This document shows, piece by piece, positions 15,071 to 25,388 of a stretch of DNA of 64,000 nt. The notes below the pieces were generated by a model, which was given only the letters and a program-made list of their open reading frames with translations, was not told where the DNA came from and searched no databases. Position numbers and translations under genes: made by a program. Positions within the stretch are counted from its first letter, which is position 1, and the number at the start of each line of letters is the position of its first letter. Source of the stretch: Solwaraspora sp. WMMA2056 (lineage in GTDB: Bacteria > Actinomycetota > Actinomycetes > Mycobacteriales > Micromonosporaceae); contig NZ_CP128360.1 of assembly GCF_030345095.1 (NCBI RefSeq), positions 3,224,001 to 3,288,000 on the forward strand, given 5' to 3'.

Positions 15071-16591
15071 GTGACTGGATAGGTTCCTGATCCCGGTGAT
15101 GCTGTCTGCTGTGGATGCTGGTAGGTTGACCAGCCATGCCCGCCGATCCGCCGCCGTCGTATGACGAGCTGCTGGCGTTGAACGCCGGGCTGGCCGCACG
15201 GCTGGAGCAGGCCCTGACGCGGATCGCTGAGCTTGAGGCCCGGTTGAAGCAGTCGTCGAGCAACTCGTCGAAACCGCCGTCGAGCGACGGGCTGGCCAAA
15301 CCGGCGCCGAAGTCGCTGCGGGGCCGTTCGGGTCGCCGGCCGGGCCGCCCGGCCGGGGGCGAGGGCACCACCCTGTCCCAGGTGGCCGAACCGGACGTGG
15401 TCGTCCGGCACGTGCCGGACACCTGTGGCGGCTGCGGTGACGGCCTGACCGACCCCGCCGAGGTGACGGTCACCCGCCGGCAGGTGTTCGACATCCCCCA
15501 GCCCCGGGTCGTGGTGACCGAGCACCAGATCGTCACCGTCGCCTGCCCGTGCGGGCACCACACCACCGCCGCGACACCCGCCGGGGCCACCGCGCCCGCC
15601 GCCTACGGACCACGGATCGCCGCGATCGGCGTCTACCTGCTCCACGGACAGTTCCTGTCCATCGGCCGCACCGCCGACGCGATCCGTGACCTGTTCGGCC
15701 TGCCCGTCGCGCCAGCCACCATCACCGCCTGGGTCACCCGCACCGCCCTCGGCGTCATCGACACGGTGCTCCCCGTCATCCGTGACCGCGTCCGCCACGC
15801 CCCGGTCGCGCACTTCGACGAGACCGGCATACGCGTCGACGGCCGCCTCGCCTGGCTGCACTCCGCCTCCACACCCACCGACGTGCTCCTCACCGTGCAC
15901 CGCCGGCGCGGCACCGCCGCAATGGACGACGCCGGCGTGCTACCCGGATACACCGGCGTCGCCGTGCACGACGCGTGGGCCCCGTACGACACCTACACCG
16001 ACGCGGTCCACGCCCTGTGCAACGCCCACGTCCTACGCGAACTGGTCTACGTGGTCGACACCGCCACCGGGCAGGTCGCCGACCTCGCCGGCCAGGCCAT
16101 CGACGCCCTGCGGCGACTGAACCGCCTGACGGTCACGGCCCGCGCCGACGGCGGTGAACCCGACCCGGCCGACCTCGCCGAACAGACCCACCTGCTGCGC
16201 TCGGCCGTCGTGCTCGGCGCCGCAGCCACCGCCGCCCGAACCGACAAGCTGCACCGCAAGTACCACGCCCTGTTCGTGCGGCTACGGGACCGACGCGCCG
16301 ACTACCTGCGGTTCCTCACCGACCCGGCCGTGCCGTTCGACAACAACCCGGCCGAGCGGACCATCCGCATGCCGAAACTCCGGATCAAGGTCTCCGGCAG
16401 TATGCGCACCATGACCGGAGCCGAACACTTCGCCGCGATCCGCAGCTACACCGCCACCGCCACCCGACACGGCATCAACATGCTCGACGCACTCACCCGA
16501 GCCGCCGCCGGCAGCCCTTGGATCCCCACAACCGCCTGACCCACCTCGCGCGCTTGCGGTATTCCAAGGTCCCACGCACCTATCCAGTCAC
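15071..16591 (+). mobile_element. IS66-family insertion sequence, complete
   Basis: A 1,521-bp element with perfect 14-bp terminal inverted repeats GTGACTGGATAGGT (15071-15084) and ACCTATCCAGTCAC (16578-16591), flanked by identical 8-base direct repeats GTCGTTGC (15063-15070 and 16592-16599). An 8-bp target duplication is characteristic of IS66. It carries one intact transposase gene and no tnpA/tnpB accessory genes, so it is the single-ORF type. Being undecayed, it is probably recent and potentially active. Confidence 0.95.
15136..16539 (+). CDS. IS66-family transposase
   Basis: A 467-residue transposase. Residues about 5-45 form a leucine-zipper-like coiled coil followed by KQSSSNSSKPPSSDG, the IS66 N-terminal hallmark. 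Next comes a zinc-binding Cys cluster (CGGCGD, CPCGHH) near residues 97-140. DDE catalytic residues are visible in HFDETGIRVDG (first Asp, about 234), VAVHDAWAPY (second Asp, about 278) and FDNNPAERTIR (Glu, about 405). No stop or frameshift interrupts it. Its GC content is high, in contrast to the AT-rich DNA it is inserted into. Confidence 0.96.
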   Translation: MPADPPPSYDELLALNAGLAARLEQALTRIAELEARLKQSSSNSSKPPSSDGLAKPAPKSLRGRSGRRPGRPAGGEGTTLSQVAEPDVVVRHVPDTCGGCGDGLTDPAEVTVTRRQVFDIPQPRVVVTEHQIVTVACPCGHHTTAATPAGATAPAAYGPRIAAIGVYLLHGQFLSIGRTADAIRDLFGLPVAPATITAWVTRTALGVIDTVLPVIRDRVRHAPVAHFDETGIRVDGRLAWLHSASTPTDVLLTVHRRRGTAAMDDAGVLPGYTGVAVHDAWAPYDTYTDAVHALCNAHVLRELVYVVDTATGQVADLAGQAIDALRRLNRLTVTARADGGEPDPADLAEQTHLLRSAVVLGAAATAARTDKLHRKYHALFVRLRDRRADYLRFLTDPAVPFDNNPAERTIRMPKLRIKVSGSMRTMTGAEHFAAIRSYTATATRHGINMLDALTRAAAGSPWIPTTA

Positions 16592-17279: not shown

Positions 17280-17480
17280 TCACTCGCCCCGCAGCGACGT
17301 GGTGAAGGACGCCCAAGCGGTGGGGGAGAATGCGAGCACGGGGCCGGAACGGTCCTTGCTGTCCCGTACCGCGATGGCGGCTGCCAAGTTGTCGGCGACC
17401 TCAACGCAGTTCCCGTTGCCGCCGGAGCGGCTGCTCGTGCGCCACTCGGCCTTCTCCAGTTGCCAGTTCTTCATCGTCAT
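17280..17480 (-). CDS. DUF397 domain protein
   Basis: A 66-residue protein with the DUF397 core WRTSSRSGGNGNCVEVA, then AIAVRDSKDRSGPVLAFSPTAWASF. Such small proteins are encoded next to XRE regulators with a DUF5753 domain in Streptomyces and Micromonospora (Scr1/Scr2-type pairs, sometimes described as toxin-antitoxin-like, with roles in development). The start ATG at 17480 overlaps the upstream regulator stop in an ATGA, giving translational coupling. A second ATG at 17474 with AAGGGAAG upstream is an alternative. Confidence 0.92.
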   Translation of the reverse strand: MTMKNWQLEKAEWRTSSRSGGNGNCVEVADNLAAAIAVRDSKDRSGPVLAFSPTAWASFTTSLRGE

Positions 17481-18358
17481 CTTCCCTTCTCGTCCATGCG
17501 GTCGATGGACTTCTTGATCATCCTGACCGACCCTGCTGGGTCGACCGCTGCTGCGCGGAGGTACTCGAACAGCGAGCTGTAGCTGGCGATCTCAGACGGA
17601 CTCTCCAGGAACATCGCGTTGACCCGGTTCTCGATGTAGACGAGCTCCGGATCATACGGGTCGGGGAAGTCCATCAGGGCGAACGCGCCGTGCATGCCAG
17701 CGTGGGCACCAACCTCGTACGGCAGCACCTGGAGGGTGATGTGGGGTTGCTTGGTCATGTCGGCGAGGTGGCGTAGCTGGCCGCGCATCACGTCGACCCC
17801 GCCGACCTGGCGATGGATCACGCCTTCGTCGATGATCGCCCAGAGCTTCAGCGGCGTGTCCTTGGTGATCGACTCCTGGCGTTTCATCGGAGCCTCGACG
17901 CGATGCGCCACGTCGGACTCGCTGCACTCGGGCAGCACTCCTGCGGTGACGGCTCGGGCGTACTCCTCGGTCTGCAGCAGGCCTGGCACGAACAGCGGCT
18001 CGTAGTTGCGGACGCTGCGGGCCTCGGCCTCGAAGCTGATGTAGGCGCTGTACTCGTCCGACAGGACTTCCTCGTACGCCTGGAGCCAGCCCAGCTGGTT
18101 CGAGTCCTTGAGCAGGTCCAGCAGCTCTGTGCGCTGTTGCCCGTCGCTGATGCCGTAGAGGTCGAGCAGGGCGAGGACGGTCCGCTTCTGCGGTCGCACC
18201 TTGCCGGTTTCGATCCGCCACAGGGTTGCGCTGTTCATGTGGGTCTTCTCGGCGGCGTCTTCGCGGGTGAGCCCTGCGTCGCTGCGCATCCCGCGCAGCT
18301 GGTATGCCAGGCGGCGCAGGCGAACAGTCGGCAGGTGCTTGCGCGCGGCCACGTCCAT
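17477..18358 (-). CDS. XRE-family regulator with DUF5753 domain
   Basis: A 293-residue protein. Residues about 10-68 are a helix-turn-helix (RLRRLAYQLRGMRSDAGLTR, then MNSATLWRIETGKVRPQ). The rest is the DUF5753 ligand-binding-like domain with YEPLFVPGLLQTEEYARAV and a C-terminal SLFEYLRAAAVDP. The ATG at 18358 is chosen over the upstream start at 18409 because of its GAGGGGAGC ribosome site and because the family begins a few residues before the HTH. It is co-transcribed with the DUF397 gene. It faces away from the Hsp70 gene run, so it may share the intergenic region with it, but no operator was identified. Confidence 0.9.
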   Translation of the reverse strand: MDVAARKHLPTVRLRRLAYQLRGMRSDAGLTREDAAEKTHMNSATLWRIETGKVRPQKRTVLALLDLYGISDGQQRTELLDLLKDSNQLGWLQAYEEVLSDEYSAYISFEAEARSVRNYEPLFVPGLLQTEEYARAVTAGVLPECSESDVAHRVEAPMKRQESITKDTPLKLWAIIDEGVIHRQVGGVDVMRGQLRHLADMTKQPHITLQVLPYEVGAHAGMHGAFALMDFPDPYDPELVYIENRVNAMFLESPSEIASYSSLFEYLRAAAVDPAGSVRMIKKSIDRMDEKGR

Positions 18359-19616: not shown

Positions 19617-22004
19617 ATGGTGGACGCTCCGGCAGCGGGAACCGTCGGGTCCGCCCTCGGCGTCGACTTCGGAACGTCGCACACCGTCGCCGCGCTGGCC
19701 TGGCCGGACGGGAGCGTCCAGCCGCTGTTCTTCGACGGCTTCCGACAGCTCCCCTCGGCGGTGTTCCTGACGCCCGGTGCCGATCTGATCGTCGGCCGTG
19801 ACGCGCTGCACGCCGCCCGTACCCGGCCCGATCGGCTGGAGCCGCACCCGAAGCGGCGCATCGACCAGGTGACCGTGGCGCTCGGTGACACCGAGGTCGA
19901 GGTCGCCGGCCTCATCGCCGCAGTCCTCGGCGCGGTCACCGCCGAAGCCTGTCGGGTCGTCGGCGGCGGCCTGCCGGCCCGTACCGTCCTCACCCATCCG
20001 GCGAACTGGGACGAGCGGCGGCGGGAAACCCTGCTGCGCGCGGCGAGCCGCGCCGGTCTGCCCGCCGTGACGCTGATGGCGGAGCCGGTGGCCGCCGCCG
20101 GCTACTTCCTGACCGACGGTCCGACGATCCGGGCCGACGGCACCACCGTGCTGGTCTACGACCTGGGCGCCGGCACCTTCGACGCCTCAGCGGTACGCCG
20201 GGTCGACGGTCAACTGTCCGTCGTCGCCACCCGTGGTCTCGACCGTACCGGCGGCCTGGACATCGACGCCGCCGTGGTGGCGTACCTCGGATCGGTCTAC
20301 GGACCCCGCGACCCGACGGCCTGGCGACGACTGACGGACCCGGACACCGACGCGGATCGCCGCGCCAGCCGGCAACTCTGGGACGACGTACGGTCGGCGA
20401 AGGAGTCACTGTCGCGGCAGCCGTCGACCGTGATACCGATCCCGTCGCTGGGCACCGACGCGCCGTTGGGTCGGATCCAGCTGGAGGAGCTGGCCGGACC
20501 GACCGTCGCCCGGACCGTGGCGGCGACCCGAGCGGTGCTCGCCGACGCCGCCCTGGCACCGACCGACCTGCCGGGGATATTCCTGGTCGGCGGTGGTAGC
20601 CGGCTGCCGCTCGCGGCCACCGCGCTGCTGCGGGCACTGGGTGTGGCACCGATGGTGTTGGAGCAACCGGAGACCGTCGTCGCCGAAGGCGCCGCCCGAT
20701 CGGTGACGGGGCCCGCCGTACCGCCGGTCCCGGAGGATTCGCCCGACCGCACCGCATCGGCAGGCACCGCATCGGCAGGTCCGGCACGACGTCCGTACGG
20801 CTGGGACCGGCGTCGGCTGCTGTCGGTCGCGGCCGCTTCGTTCGTCGTCGGCGCTACGCCGGTCTTGCTCACCGCCGATCGCCCGGTGTCCGGCGGGGCG
20901 CTGCCGACGACCACGACCGGCCCGACCCGAGGTCCGGCACCACGGTCGAGTCCCGGCGCGAGCGCAGATCCGGGTCCCGGGCCGAGCGTCGCCTCGTCCA
21001 ACGCGCGGTCGTCGCCCCCGCTGCCCGGACCCGAACCCGGCGGCCTGCTGTGGCGTCGGCAGCTGCCCGGGATCCGGCACCGGCCGACCGTCGCGGCCGG
21101 ACTGGTCGTCGTGCTCTGCGACGACGGCGTCTGCTATGCCGTGCGCGTTGCGGACGGCTCGACAGTCTGGACCCGTAGGGTCGCGCCAGGCATGTTCCGC
21201 AACGACGTCGGCGCACCGACGGTCGTCGGGGACCGGGTCTACGTCGCCAGCCACGACAACCGTCTGCACCTGCTCGACGCAGCCACCGGAGCGGTGGTCG
21301 GCACGGCCACCAGCCGTAACATTCTGACGTCGTCACCGGCGGTCGACGACCGGTTGGTCTACCTGGCCCAGGAGGGCCTGGAGACGTACGACCCGGCCGA
21401 CCTCACCCCGCGTTGGCGTTTCGACGTGCCGGCCGCCGCCCGCGAGCCTCTGCTCACCGGCGACCTCGCGGTCTTCACCACCAACAACGGCCGGGTGTAC
21501 GCCGTCGACCGGTCGACCGGCCGGCAGCGCTGGCGCCATTCCCCGCCCGGTGCCGACCGGCTGTCCCGGCAGCTCGCCGCGACCGAGGGCGCGATCATCG
21601 TCACCGGATCCAACGGGCGGTGCTACGCGATCGACGCCCGCGACGGCGGCCTGCGGTGGCGGCGGGACGGGACCGGATCCGAGCTGGTCGGCCCGGCGGC
21701 CGCCGACGGCGTCGTGTTCACCGCTTCCTTCGACGGGTACGTCCATGCGCTCGGCGCGGCCGACGGTCGGCCGCGTTGGCGCACCCGGGTCGACGGCTAC
21801 GTCCTCGGTCGGCTGACCGTCGCCGGGCCACTGGTGTATGCGTCCACCACCACCGTGGTCACCGCTCTGCGGGTGGCGACCGGTGCGATCGCCTGGGCAC
21901 ACCCGCTGGGCCAGACCAGCGGCGTGCGGGTCGCCGACTCGGTTGCGTACGTCGGCGGCGCGACCGGCTGGCTCAGTGCGCTGGCCGCGCCGGCCACCGC
22001 CTGA
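19617..22004 (+). CDS. Hsp70-type ATPase / TM / PQQ-like beta-propeller fusion
   Basis: A 795-residue fusion. Residues about 12-365 are an Hsp70/actin-fold ATPase with all three nucleotide motifs: LGVDFGTSHTVAALAW (phosphate 1, residues 13-28), VLVYDLGAGTFDASAV (phosphate 2, about 177-192) and IFLVGGGSRLPL (adenosine, about 321-332). The Hsp70 substrate-binding domain is absent. Instead a basic stretch DRRR precedes a hydrophobic segment at about 401-423 (LLSVAAASFVVGATPVLLT), then a Pro/Thr/Ser linker, then a PQQ-like propeller from about 475 with repeated blade motifs (TVWTRRV, PRWRFDV, RQRWRHS, LRWRRDG, PRWRTRV, IAWAHPL). Predicted topology is cytoplasmic ATPase, one membrane pass, extracellular propeller. 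It is followed after 29 bases by a paralogue. Confidence 0.88.
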   Translation: MVDAPAAGTVGSALGVDFGTSHTVAALAWPDGSVQPLFFDGFRQLPSAVFLTPGADLIVGRDALHAARTRPDRLEPHPKRRIDQVTVALGDTEVEVAGLIAAVLGAVTAEACRVVGGGLPARTVLTHPANWDERRRETLLRAASRAGLPAVTLMAEPVAAAGYFLTDGPTIRADGTTVLVYDLGAGTFDASAVRRVDGQLSVVATRGLDRTGGLDIDAAVVAYLGSVYGPRDPTAWRRLTDPDTDADRRASRQLWDDVRSAKESLSRQPSTVIPIPSLGTDAPLGRIQLEELAGPTVARTVAATRAVLADAALAPTDLPGIFLVGGGSRLPLAATALLRALGVAPMVLEQPETVVAEGAARSVTGPAVPPVPEDSPDRTASAGTASAGPARRPYGWDRRRLLSVAAASFVVGATPVLLTADRPVSGGALPTTTTGPTRGPAPRSSPGASADPGPGPSVASSNARSSPPLPGPEPGGLLWRRQLPGIRHRPTVAAGLVVVLCDDGVCYAVRVADGSTVWTRRVAPGMFRNDVGAPTVVGDRVYVASHDNRLHLLDAATGAVVGTATSRNILTSSPAVDDRLVYLAQEGLETYDPADLTPRWRFDVPAAAREPLLTGDLAVFTTNNGRVYAVDRSTGRQRWRHSPPGADRLSRQLAATEGAIIVTGSNGRCYAIDARDGGLRWRRDGTGSELVGPAAADGVVFTASFDGYVHALGAADGRPRWRTRVDGYVLGRLTVAGPLVYASTTTVVTALRVATGAIAWAHPLGQTSGVRVADSVAYVGGATGWLSALAAPATA

Positions 22005-22033
22005 ACGTTGATGTGCGTCGTTACCATCGGCCG

Positions 22034-24262
<2,229 letters not shown>

Positions 24263-24428: not shown

Positions 24429-25256
24429 TCAGGACAGCCAGTTGCTGACGGCCAGGCTGCCGAGCAGCCGCAGCGCCTCGGCGCTGCGGCTGCTCGGCTC
24501 CGCGCGGTACACGATCAGCTGCTGACCAGCGGCGCCCCGCACGTCGAAGGCGTGGTACGTCAACGTCAGCTCGCCGACCGTGCCGTGCCGGAACGTCTTC
24601 GCCTCGTGGGTCTTGCCCCGTACGTCGTTGCGCTGCCACAGCCGGCGGAACTCCGGGCTGGCCGTGCTCACCTCCTCGACCAGCTCGTGTACCCGCCGGT
24701 CGTGTGGGTCGTGGCCGAGCGCGAGCCGCAGGTTCGCCACGCACGCGTGCGCGGCGCGCTGCCAGTCGGCGAAGAAGGTGGCCCCGGCCGGGTCGAGGAA
24801 GGTCATCCGAACGATGTTGTCCGGCTCGGTGAAGTCGGCGTAGAACGCGTCCGCCAGCGGGTTGCCGGCCAGCAGGTCGAGGCGGCGGTCGATCACGATC
24901 GCCGGGGTGTCCGGCCAGGCGTCGAGCAGCTCCCGCAGCCCCGGATCGACCCGGGGGCGGGTCGGCGTCGGGGTCGACCCGGGTGCGACGTCGGCCAGCC
25001 GGAACAGATGGTCCCGGGCGTCGCCGTCCAGGTCGAGGGCGCTGGCCACGGCATCCAGCACCGACGCCGACGGGTGGCGTTCCCGCCCCTGCTCCAGCCG
25101 GGTGTAGTAGTCGACGCTCACCCCGGCCAGCACGGCGACCTCTTCGCGGCGCAGACCGGCGACCCGTCGGGTGCCGCTGGTGGTCAGCCCGACATCGCCC
25201 GGGGTGAGCCGGGCCCGGCGGGCGACGAGGAACGCCCCGAGTGCGGTGGTGGGCAT
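24429..25256 (-). CDS. Helix-turn-helix regulator, MmyB-like
   Basis: A 275-residue protein. Residues about 5-75 are an XRE-type HTH with GLRREEVAVLAGVSVDYYTR and EQGRERHPSASVLDAVASAL, the standard MmyB-family N-terminus. The C-terminal PAS-like ligand domain includes PAIVIDRRLDLLAGNPLADA and ends with a YHAFDVRG segment; it binds fatty-acid-like ligands in studied members. The ATG at 25256 is preferred; a GTG three codons upstream is possible. It is divergent from the Atu4866-fusion gene (start 25389), so it is a likely regulator of the two amidohydrolase-related genes. Confidence 0.9.
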   Translation of the reverse strand: MPTTALGAFLVARRARLTPGDVGLTTSGTRRVAGLRREEVAVLAGVSVDYYTRLEQGRERHPSASVLDAVASALDLDGDARDHLFRLADVAPGSTPTPTRPRVDPGLRELLDAWPDTPAIVIDRRLDLLAGNPLADAFYADFTEPDNIVRMTFLDPAGATFFADWQRAAHACVANLRLALGHDPHDRRVHELVEEVSTASPEFRRLWQRNDVRGKTHEAKTFRHGTVGELTLTYHAFDVRGAAGQQLIVYRAEPSSRSAEALRLLGSLAVSNWLS

Positions 25257-25388
25257 GCCGACCACGGTATCCAGCCCCGGCTACGGCCAAACAGGGTGCG
25301 TCACACCCTGGTAACGGCCGGCCTGGTTGACCGTCGTCGCCGGGCCGATGGTGGAGAGGACCAAGCCGAACGACCACCGGAGGTTCTC

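Follow-up and report, generated by a model that had tools for sequence, protein, structure and literature searches.

The window analysed here, a stretch of 64,000 nucleotides from Solwaraspora sp. WMMA2056 (contig NZ_CP128360.1, positions 3,224,001 to 3,288,000), carries two adjacent genes on the forward strand, each encoding an Hsp70-type ATPase followed by a linker, a hydrophobic segment and a C-terminal propeller, here called the head. The stop codon of gene 1 (19617..22004) and the GTG of gene 2 (22034..24262) are 29 bases apart on the same strand. By sequence reading, this GTG at 22034 is the likely start of gene 2; a codon-bias caller of open reading frames (ORFs) starts the gene instead at 22118, past the first phosphate motif. 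The unit of interest proved to be a large modular family, beyond the neighbouring gene pair. The features of both genes are given below in window coordinates, with the predicted local distance difference test score (pLDDT) of the AlphaFold2 models.

19617..22004, + strand: gene 1, Hsp70 ATPase, linker, membrane segment and PQQ/BamB-type propeller, 795 amino acids (aa)
19641..20708, + strand: gene 1 Hsp70 nucleotide-binding domain, residues about 9-364 (Pfam HSP70 1.7e-35; pLDDT mostly >90; catalytic residues in the alignment)
20709..20816, + strand: gene 1 low-complexity linker, residues 365-400, with the arginine-rich end ARRPYGWDRRR (from the sequence; pLDDT <50 at 377-397)
20817..20873, + strand: gene 1 hydrophobic membrane segment, residues 401-419 (Kyte-Doolittle 1.95; short low-confidence model helix 398-411)
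21033..22001, + strand: gene 1 PQQ/BamB-type propeller head, residues 473-795 (PQQ_2 3.3e-39; about eight repeats by eye; poorly modelled)
22034..24262, + strand: gene 2, Hsp70 ATPase, linker, membrane helix and WD40 propeller, 742 aa from GTG
22043..23104, + strand: gene 2 Hsp70 nucleotide-binding domain, residues about 4-357 (Pfam HSP70 1.6e-30; pLDDT mostly >90)
23123..23293, + strand: gene 2 disordered linker with Asp-Ala repeat, residues 364-420 (pLDDT <50 at 364-368 and 370-421)
23294..23359, + strand: gene 2 transmembrane helix, residues 421-442 (Kyte-Doolittle 2.17; AlphaFold2 helix)
23417..24259, + strand: gene 2 seven-bladed WD40 propeller head, residues 462-742 (WD40 2.8e-37; 27 strands; Foldseek 5yzv)

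Domain architecture of the two proteins

An earlier note on this DNA had described both proteins as Hsp70-fold ATPases with intact nucleotide motifs, and the Pfam HSP70 matches together with the conserved catalytic residues bear this out. The best stretch of the HSP70 profile stops at position 369 of 599 in gene 1 and at 368 in gene 2; no substrate-binding domain is therefore matched, in agreement with the absence that the note had claimed. The hydrophobic segment expected near residues 400-440 was located at 401-419 in gene 1 and at 421-442 in gene 2 by Kyte-Doolittle analysis and in the models. A second Kyte-Doolittle flag in gene 1 (491-509, 1.76) lies within the head.

In the confident AlphaFold2 model of gene 2 (mean pLDDT 86.8), a disordered stretch at about 364-421 links the Hsp70 domain to a helix at 421-442; the head that follows has 27 strands, which is consistent with seven blades. 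The top Foldseek match in the PDB was 5yzv, a Thermomonospora WD40 domain named as that of the kinase PkwA (target TM-score 0.89), followed at lower ranks by a designed seven-bladed propeller and by Hsp70 ATPase domains. The seven-bladed WD40 head first read from the letters of gene 2 thus has both Pfam and the model behind it. In gene 1 (mean pLDDT 67.6) the ATPase was modelled well and the head poorly (pLDDT mostly 30-80), so that the PQQ-type propeller, also named in the note, is called from the Pfam match and the repeats seen by eye. The NCBIfam model of the kinase AfsK matched the gene 1 head at 3e-19 and 69 bits, against a far higher cut-off of 1300, and the BamB equivalog TIGR03300 scored 120.2 bits, below its cut-off of 285.2. 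No protein kinase domain was found among the 6 Pfam matches of gene 1 or among the 25 listed of the 37 matches of gene 2. A promoter and terminator scan found nothing. The Asp-Ala repeat in the gene 2 linker (about 23228-23268) is encoded by reiterated GACGCC units.

Distribution and sampling of the family

The genome that holds the window, a single 7.0-Mb contig, contained 14 matches to the gene 1 ATPase, of which two are the halves of a single gene. Seven genes, including the two of the window, were at least 47% identical to the gene 1 ATPase and were taken as its clade members there. Each of six other genomes of the genus had a nearest match 50-53% identical to this ATPase; the matches ended by gene 1 residue 516 and thus touched the head (from 473) at most. 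Within the taxonomic family 29 of 41 drawn genomes matched at 1e-60, with up to at least 23 copies in one genome. The order draw gave matches at 1e-50 in 28 of 61 genomes (22 of 55 outside the window's own family, by our count from the table), and the class draw in at least 3 of 118, two being the window's genome and a member of its family. As at most 48, 32 and 16 candidates per genome were scored for family, order and class, respectively, the copy numbers and the count for the class are to be taken as minimum values. The clade seems to be centred on one order. A search for related loci with a single protein returned one weak Streptomyces fragment.

The sample consisted of 100 regions from 14 relatives and 10 regions from the window's own genome. 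A hidden Markov model (HMM) built on the seven ATPases of the latter separated 108 clade members from six remoter Hsp70s (score <240). The 108 members, a part of all matches, come from 15 genomes that were chosen among the matching ones and are mostly rich in copies or well assembled. Rows that repeated the last 120 residues of another row exactly were removed before counting; as the members are related, counts across the family overstate independence. Genes were called with a codon-bias script, which set some starts wrongly. Membrane segments were assigned by Kyte-Doolittle and head classes by script, with a few irregularities (two "tail-anchored" members with two segments, one WD40 member with six).

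The two genes as a pair

The ATPase halves of the two window proteins are indeed paralogous, as the note had held, but they form no special pair: their identity of 49.5% compares with a family median of 48.9%. Nor was a conserved functional pair supported. A conserved two-gene system was rejected, as no tandem of separate genes was found in the six other genus genomes at E 1e-20. Same-strand tandems occurred three times among the 108 members, and adjacent pairs were also present, by coordinates, in one genome of the order (G059) and one of the class (G198). Tandems therefore recur, yet they are not the rule. A recent duplication followed by a head swap was not supported either, given the median-like identity and the separate positions of the two ATPases on the tree, neither of which is starred.

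Conservation and loss in the ATPase

The catalytic residues are kept almost throughout the family. The equivalent of DnaK D194 and the glycine pair of the adenosine motif were present in all 108 members, E171 in 107 (one gap), T199 and D201 in 107, K70 in 106 (two gaps) and D8 in 94; we believe that the 14 gaps at D8 stem from wrongly called starts. At the level of sequence, both the predicted architecture and the conservation of catalytic residues are established.

Several features of DnaK have been lost. The hydrophobic interdomain linker motif of DnaK (VLLL type) was found in none of the 108 members, and all 108 lack the loop of subdomain IIB that is present in the DnaK of the same genome. 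This loop matters for GrpE, and R167, N170 and T173 (E. coli numbering), which we take to be the DnaJ-contact positions, for DnaJ, R167 being central. N170 and T173 were kept in none of the 107 aligned rows, while R167 was retained in 50 of 108 members; the window proteins carry T and Y at this position. From the lost loop and the changed contact residues, the ATPase is expected to stand outside the DnaJ/GrpE cycle and probably runs without either partner.

Membrane segment and predicted topology

A membrane segment after the ATPase was predicted in 99 of 108 members. At a Kyte-Doolittle threshold of 1.6, 98 of 106 C-terminal regions passed, against a mean of 40 in shuffles; at 1.9 the numbers were 94 and 19. 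Five of the six remoter Hsp70s had no segment, and one (at locus L020 of the window's genome) had one.

In 57 of the 62 single-pass headed members, the stretch ahead of the segment was richer in lysine and arginine than the stretch behind it. Among the 60 heads of at least 100 residues, 50 contained cysteine, 43 of them in even number; the ATPase parts of the same 60 proteins contained cysteine in 46 cases, only 13 of them even. For gene 2, whose head has zero cysteines, this parity is uninformative. Some heads match SBP_bac_3, Peripla_BP_6 or LCCL, which are domains normally found outside the cytoplasm. Based on the charge bias, the cysteine parity and the solute-binding and LCCL heads, we strongly infer that the ATPase is cytoplasmic and the head outside the membrane, as the earlier note had proposed. 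The layout of a cytoplasmic catalytic domain, one membrane helix and an outer head is thus found by prediction.

Pairs of arginines followed by hydrophobic residues (RRx-hydrophobic) precede the segment in 18 of the 62 single-pass headed members, compared with 6.7% in juxtamembrane shuffles of all 99. As arginines crowd at the membrane anyway, we draw nothing from this likeness to a Tat-type export motif. One such pair lies just upstream of the gene 1 segment (window 20808-20822).

C-terminal heads and their exchange

The C-termini of the 108 members fell into PQQ-like (16), WD40 (15) and one unassigned head type (9), other single-pass heads (25), tail anchors (17), multi-pass regions (20) and none (6); three WD40-class members also lack a membrane segment. 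A Pfam scan of 106 C-terminal regions gave WD40 in 15 and PQQ_2 in 11. Ten odd heads were scanned singly and yielded Peripla_BP_6, SBP_bac_3, FKBP_C, Kelch and LCCL, one each, with five lacking a match; ten further odd heads gave one weak WD40-type match and nine without a Pfam match. From ten multi-pass C-termini came two weak matches below cut-off and eight blanks. The one scanned member of the unassigned nine-member type had no Pfam match.

On a FastTree phylogeny of the 108 ATPases the seven head labels required 33 changes, against a minimum of 6 and a mean of 69.9 for shuffled labels; head labels are therefore both clustered and exchanged. Starred branches alone forced at least four changes for WD40 and at least three for PQQ. 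Gene 1 did not group with the rest of the PQQ-headed members, and the neighbours of gene 2 were members with WD40 heads or with the unassigned nine-member type; both positions are unstarred. The suggestion that heads are interchangeable is thus supported, by prediction, for the family at large.

A search of the own genome for a donor of the gene 2 head matched, at 1e-10, only the WD40-Hsp70 of locus L022. The same genome has 15 kinase domains, compared with seven clade Hsp70s; at the kinase ends no WD40 or PQQ repeats were seen by eye in the last 160 residues of 6 of the 15 loci, which are short, so that heads may have been cut. One member of the family (L148:3764-8065) reaches 1433 aa, with the ATPase, some 690 residues without a Pfam match, a membrane segment and a Peripla_BP_6 head.

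Neighbouring genes

Among the genes within four places of the members, grouped into clusters of which the 30 largest were considered, none stood beside most members, and the largest touched 14 of 108. Synteny marked out a PQQ group of 10 loci behind cysS- and rlmB-like genes (names from sequence reading) and a tail-anchored group, also of 10 loci, with a GTPase gene no more than four genes away in 5 of them; the own-genome copy of this GTPase gene gave a Dynamin_N match. These two groups are old loci.

Near the window pair, five neighbours were scanned (upstream ORFs of 69 and 76 aa left out), and no GTPase or known effector was found among them. They comprised two helix-turn-helix (HTH) regulators, a DUF397 gene, an IS66 transposase and a weak DivIVA match; three features are placed as follows.

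15136-16539: IS66 transposase
17280-18358: HTH/DUF5753 regulator with DUF397
24429-25265: MmyB-like regulator

Some remoter Hsp70s adjoin dynamin-like GTPases. This is the case on a Gordonia terrae plasmid, where the Hsp70 (annotated only as "Hsp70 family protein") carries a single predicted membrane segment with some 180 residues after it, and at loci L020 and L022 of the window's own genome. The Hsp70 at L022 (L022:7259-13522) is a WD40 fusion without a predicted membrane segment, near dynamin-like GTPases and a GrpE match below cut-off. In Nonomuraea gerenzanensis (L218:364-8130) one strand carries, by our own gene calls, two dynamin-like GTPases, an Hsp70 whose C-terminal end has two predicted segments, a caspase-domain gene and two small ORFs between them. 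The dnaK-grpE region of the window's genome (L023:6047-12743) is flanked by a divergent tandem pair of dynamin-like GTPase genes. GTPase-centred conflict systems include Hsp70 genes without a peptide-binding domain, according to the consulted part of their description (Kaur et al., 2020; PMC7159879), and the remoter Hsp70s beside dynamin-like GTPases hint that the family may have originated in GTPase-linked systems of this kind.

A putative receptor-like family of Hsp70 ATPases

We read the window proteins, with about even confidence, as belonging to a modular family whose members are receptor-like transmembrane Hsp70 ATPases with a switch-like mechanism. In the cytoplasm would lie an Hsp70-type nucleotide-binding domain, connected through a flexible linker and a single membrane helix with a variable outer head, which may bind a ligand or a wall component outside the membrane. 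Binding at the head would gather molecules or shift the placement of the ATPase, and the ATP/ADP state of the switch would decide which cytoplasmic partner is held. Such a switch would need no substrate-binding domain and probably neither DnaJ nor GrpE. We infer ligand sensing and partner control from the architecture alone.

Several observations weigh against this reading. The script classed 20 of the 108 members as multi-pass and 17 as tail-anchored, so that a classical outer head is missing from both groups, and in 9 members no segment is predicted. For most odd heads no ligand class is known, since 14 of 20 lacked a Pfam match. Lysine and arginine are equal on both sides of the segment in 3 of the 62 single-pass headed members and reversed in 2, and 7 of the 50 cysteine-containing heads have an odd count, including that of gene 1 with three (own count). 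The gene 1 membrane segment is one of the weaker ones of the family. The gene 1 head had no other match in the own genome at 1e-4 and only two partial matches in 60 relatives at 1e-15. R167, the central residue of DnaJ contact, survives in about half of the members. Finally, as the linker is predicted to be disordered, rigid signal transmission is unlikely; its flexibility fits signalling through clustering or recruitment and not through a rigid lever.

The proteins could also serve as scaffolds or positioning devices at the membrane that share the actin/Hsp70 fold and resemble FtsA or MreB in principle. The head or the membrane part would then anchor the protein at a given place in the envelope, where the ATPase recruits or assembles cytoplasmic proteins without sensing a ligand. 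The 20 multi-pass and 17 tail-anchored members need no ligand-binding head for such a task, a GTPase gene accompanies half of the synteny-marked tail-anchored loci, and the two window proteins match MreB_Mbl at 29.2 and 34 bits, just above the cut-off of 27. We read these last matches as a cross-match within the superfamily; the ATPases are far nearer to Hsp70 (1e-30 to 1e-35) than to MreB (1e-7 to 1e-8), and the solute-binding-protein heads suggest ligands. We consider a scaffold an unlikely explanation.

More doubtful is a membrane-anchored chaperone or assembly machine that folds or inserts envelope proteins while the outer head holds the clients. Hsp70 ancestry, the FKBP prolyl isomerase head of one member and the resemblance of the gene 1 head to the envelope assembly factor BamB would fit such a machine, but the resemblance stops short of the BamB model's cut-off (120 against 285 bits for TIGR03300). 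Moreover, neither a substrate-binding domain nor the DnaK linker motif is matched, N170 and T173 are changed in every aligned member, and ATPase and head are predicted on opposite sides of the membrane. Least probable of the alternatives, by a small margin, is a regulatory role in defence or conflict, like that in the GTPase-centred Hsp70 systems of Kaur et al. (2020). Such a role would suit the dynamin-like GTPases beside remoter Hsp70s (Gordonia terrae plasmid, Nonomuraea gerenzanensis, L020 and L022), the caspase-domain gene in N. gerenzanensis and the Hsp70 genes without a peptide-binding domain reported in the consulted part of PMC7159879. Against it, the five scanned window neighbours include no GTPase or known effector and none of the 30 largest neighbour clusters recurs beside most members (14 of 108 at most).

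Returning to the receptor-like reading, the family might, more tentatively, represent another class of one-piece transmembrane receptors in bacteria, in addition to histidine kinases and Hanks kinases. An Hsp70 ATPase released from the chaperone cycle would be its cytoplasmic output switch, and input would come from a wide range of outer heads, among them solute-binding proteins, propellers, LCCL, FKBP and multi-pass domains. No description of bacterial transmembrane Hsp70s with outer heads was found in titles and abstract beginnings of open-licence PMC papers, a search that leaves most subscription papers and bioRxiv outside and does not establish absence. If the reading is true, the ATPase of a chaperone motor was recruited as the inner half of membrane receptors whose heads were exchanged many times, and actinomycetes would have an added class of envelope signalling proteins. 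The family would also offer a natural set of Hsp70 ATPases that lack a substrate-binding domain, the DnaK linker and full DnaJ contact, and so allow the ATP switch to be probed alone.

Comparison with known systems

With the systems of Kaur et al. (2020; PMC7159879) the family shares an actinobacterial Hsp70 domain without a peptide-binding domain; it differs in that no GTPase lies among the scanned window neighbours, and the consulted part of that paper mentions no membrane heads on Hsp70. DnaK/HscA-type Hsp70 chaperones have the same catalytic residues, and Hsp70 ATPase domains were matched by Foldseek, but the family is without a matched substrate-binding domain, the DnaK linker motif and the IIB loop, has N170 and T173 changed, and adds a membrane segment and an outer head. 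FtsA and MreB are actin/Hsp70-fold ATPases at the inner face of the membrane, where the likewise actin/Hsp70-fold ATPase of the family is predicted to lie; unlike them, the family is Hsp70-type by sequence and carries a membrane segment and an outer domain.

Hanks receptor kinases, such as PkwA and AfsK, consist of a cytoplasmic ATP-using domain, a linker, a membrane segment and a WD40 or PQQ-type head. The window proteins are predicted to share this layout; the top fold match of gene 2 is the WD40 domain of PkwA, and the AfsK model matches the gene 1 head, albeit below its cut-off. They differ in that the ATP-using domain is an Hsp70 and no kinase, so that phosphotransfer is not expected. Among the systems compared, the Hanks receptor kinases with propeller heads offer the closest layout.

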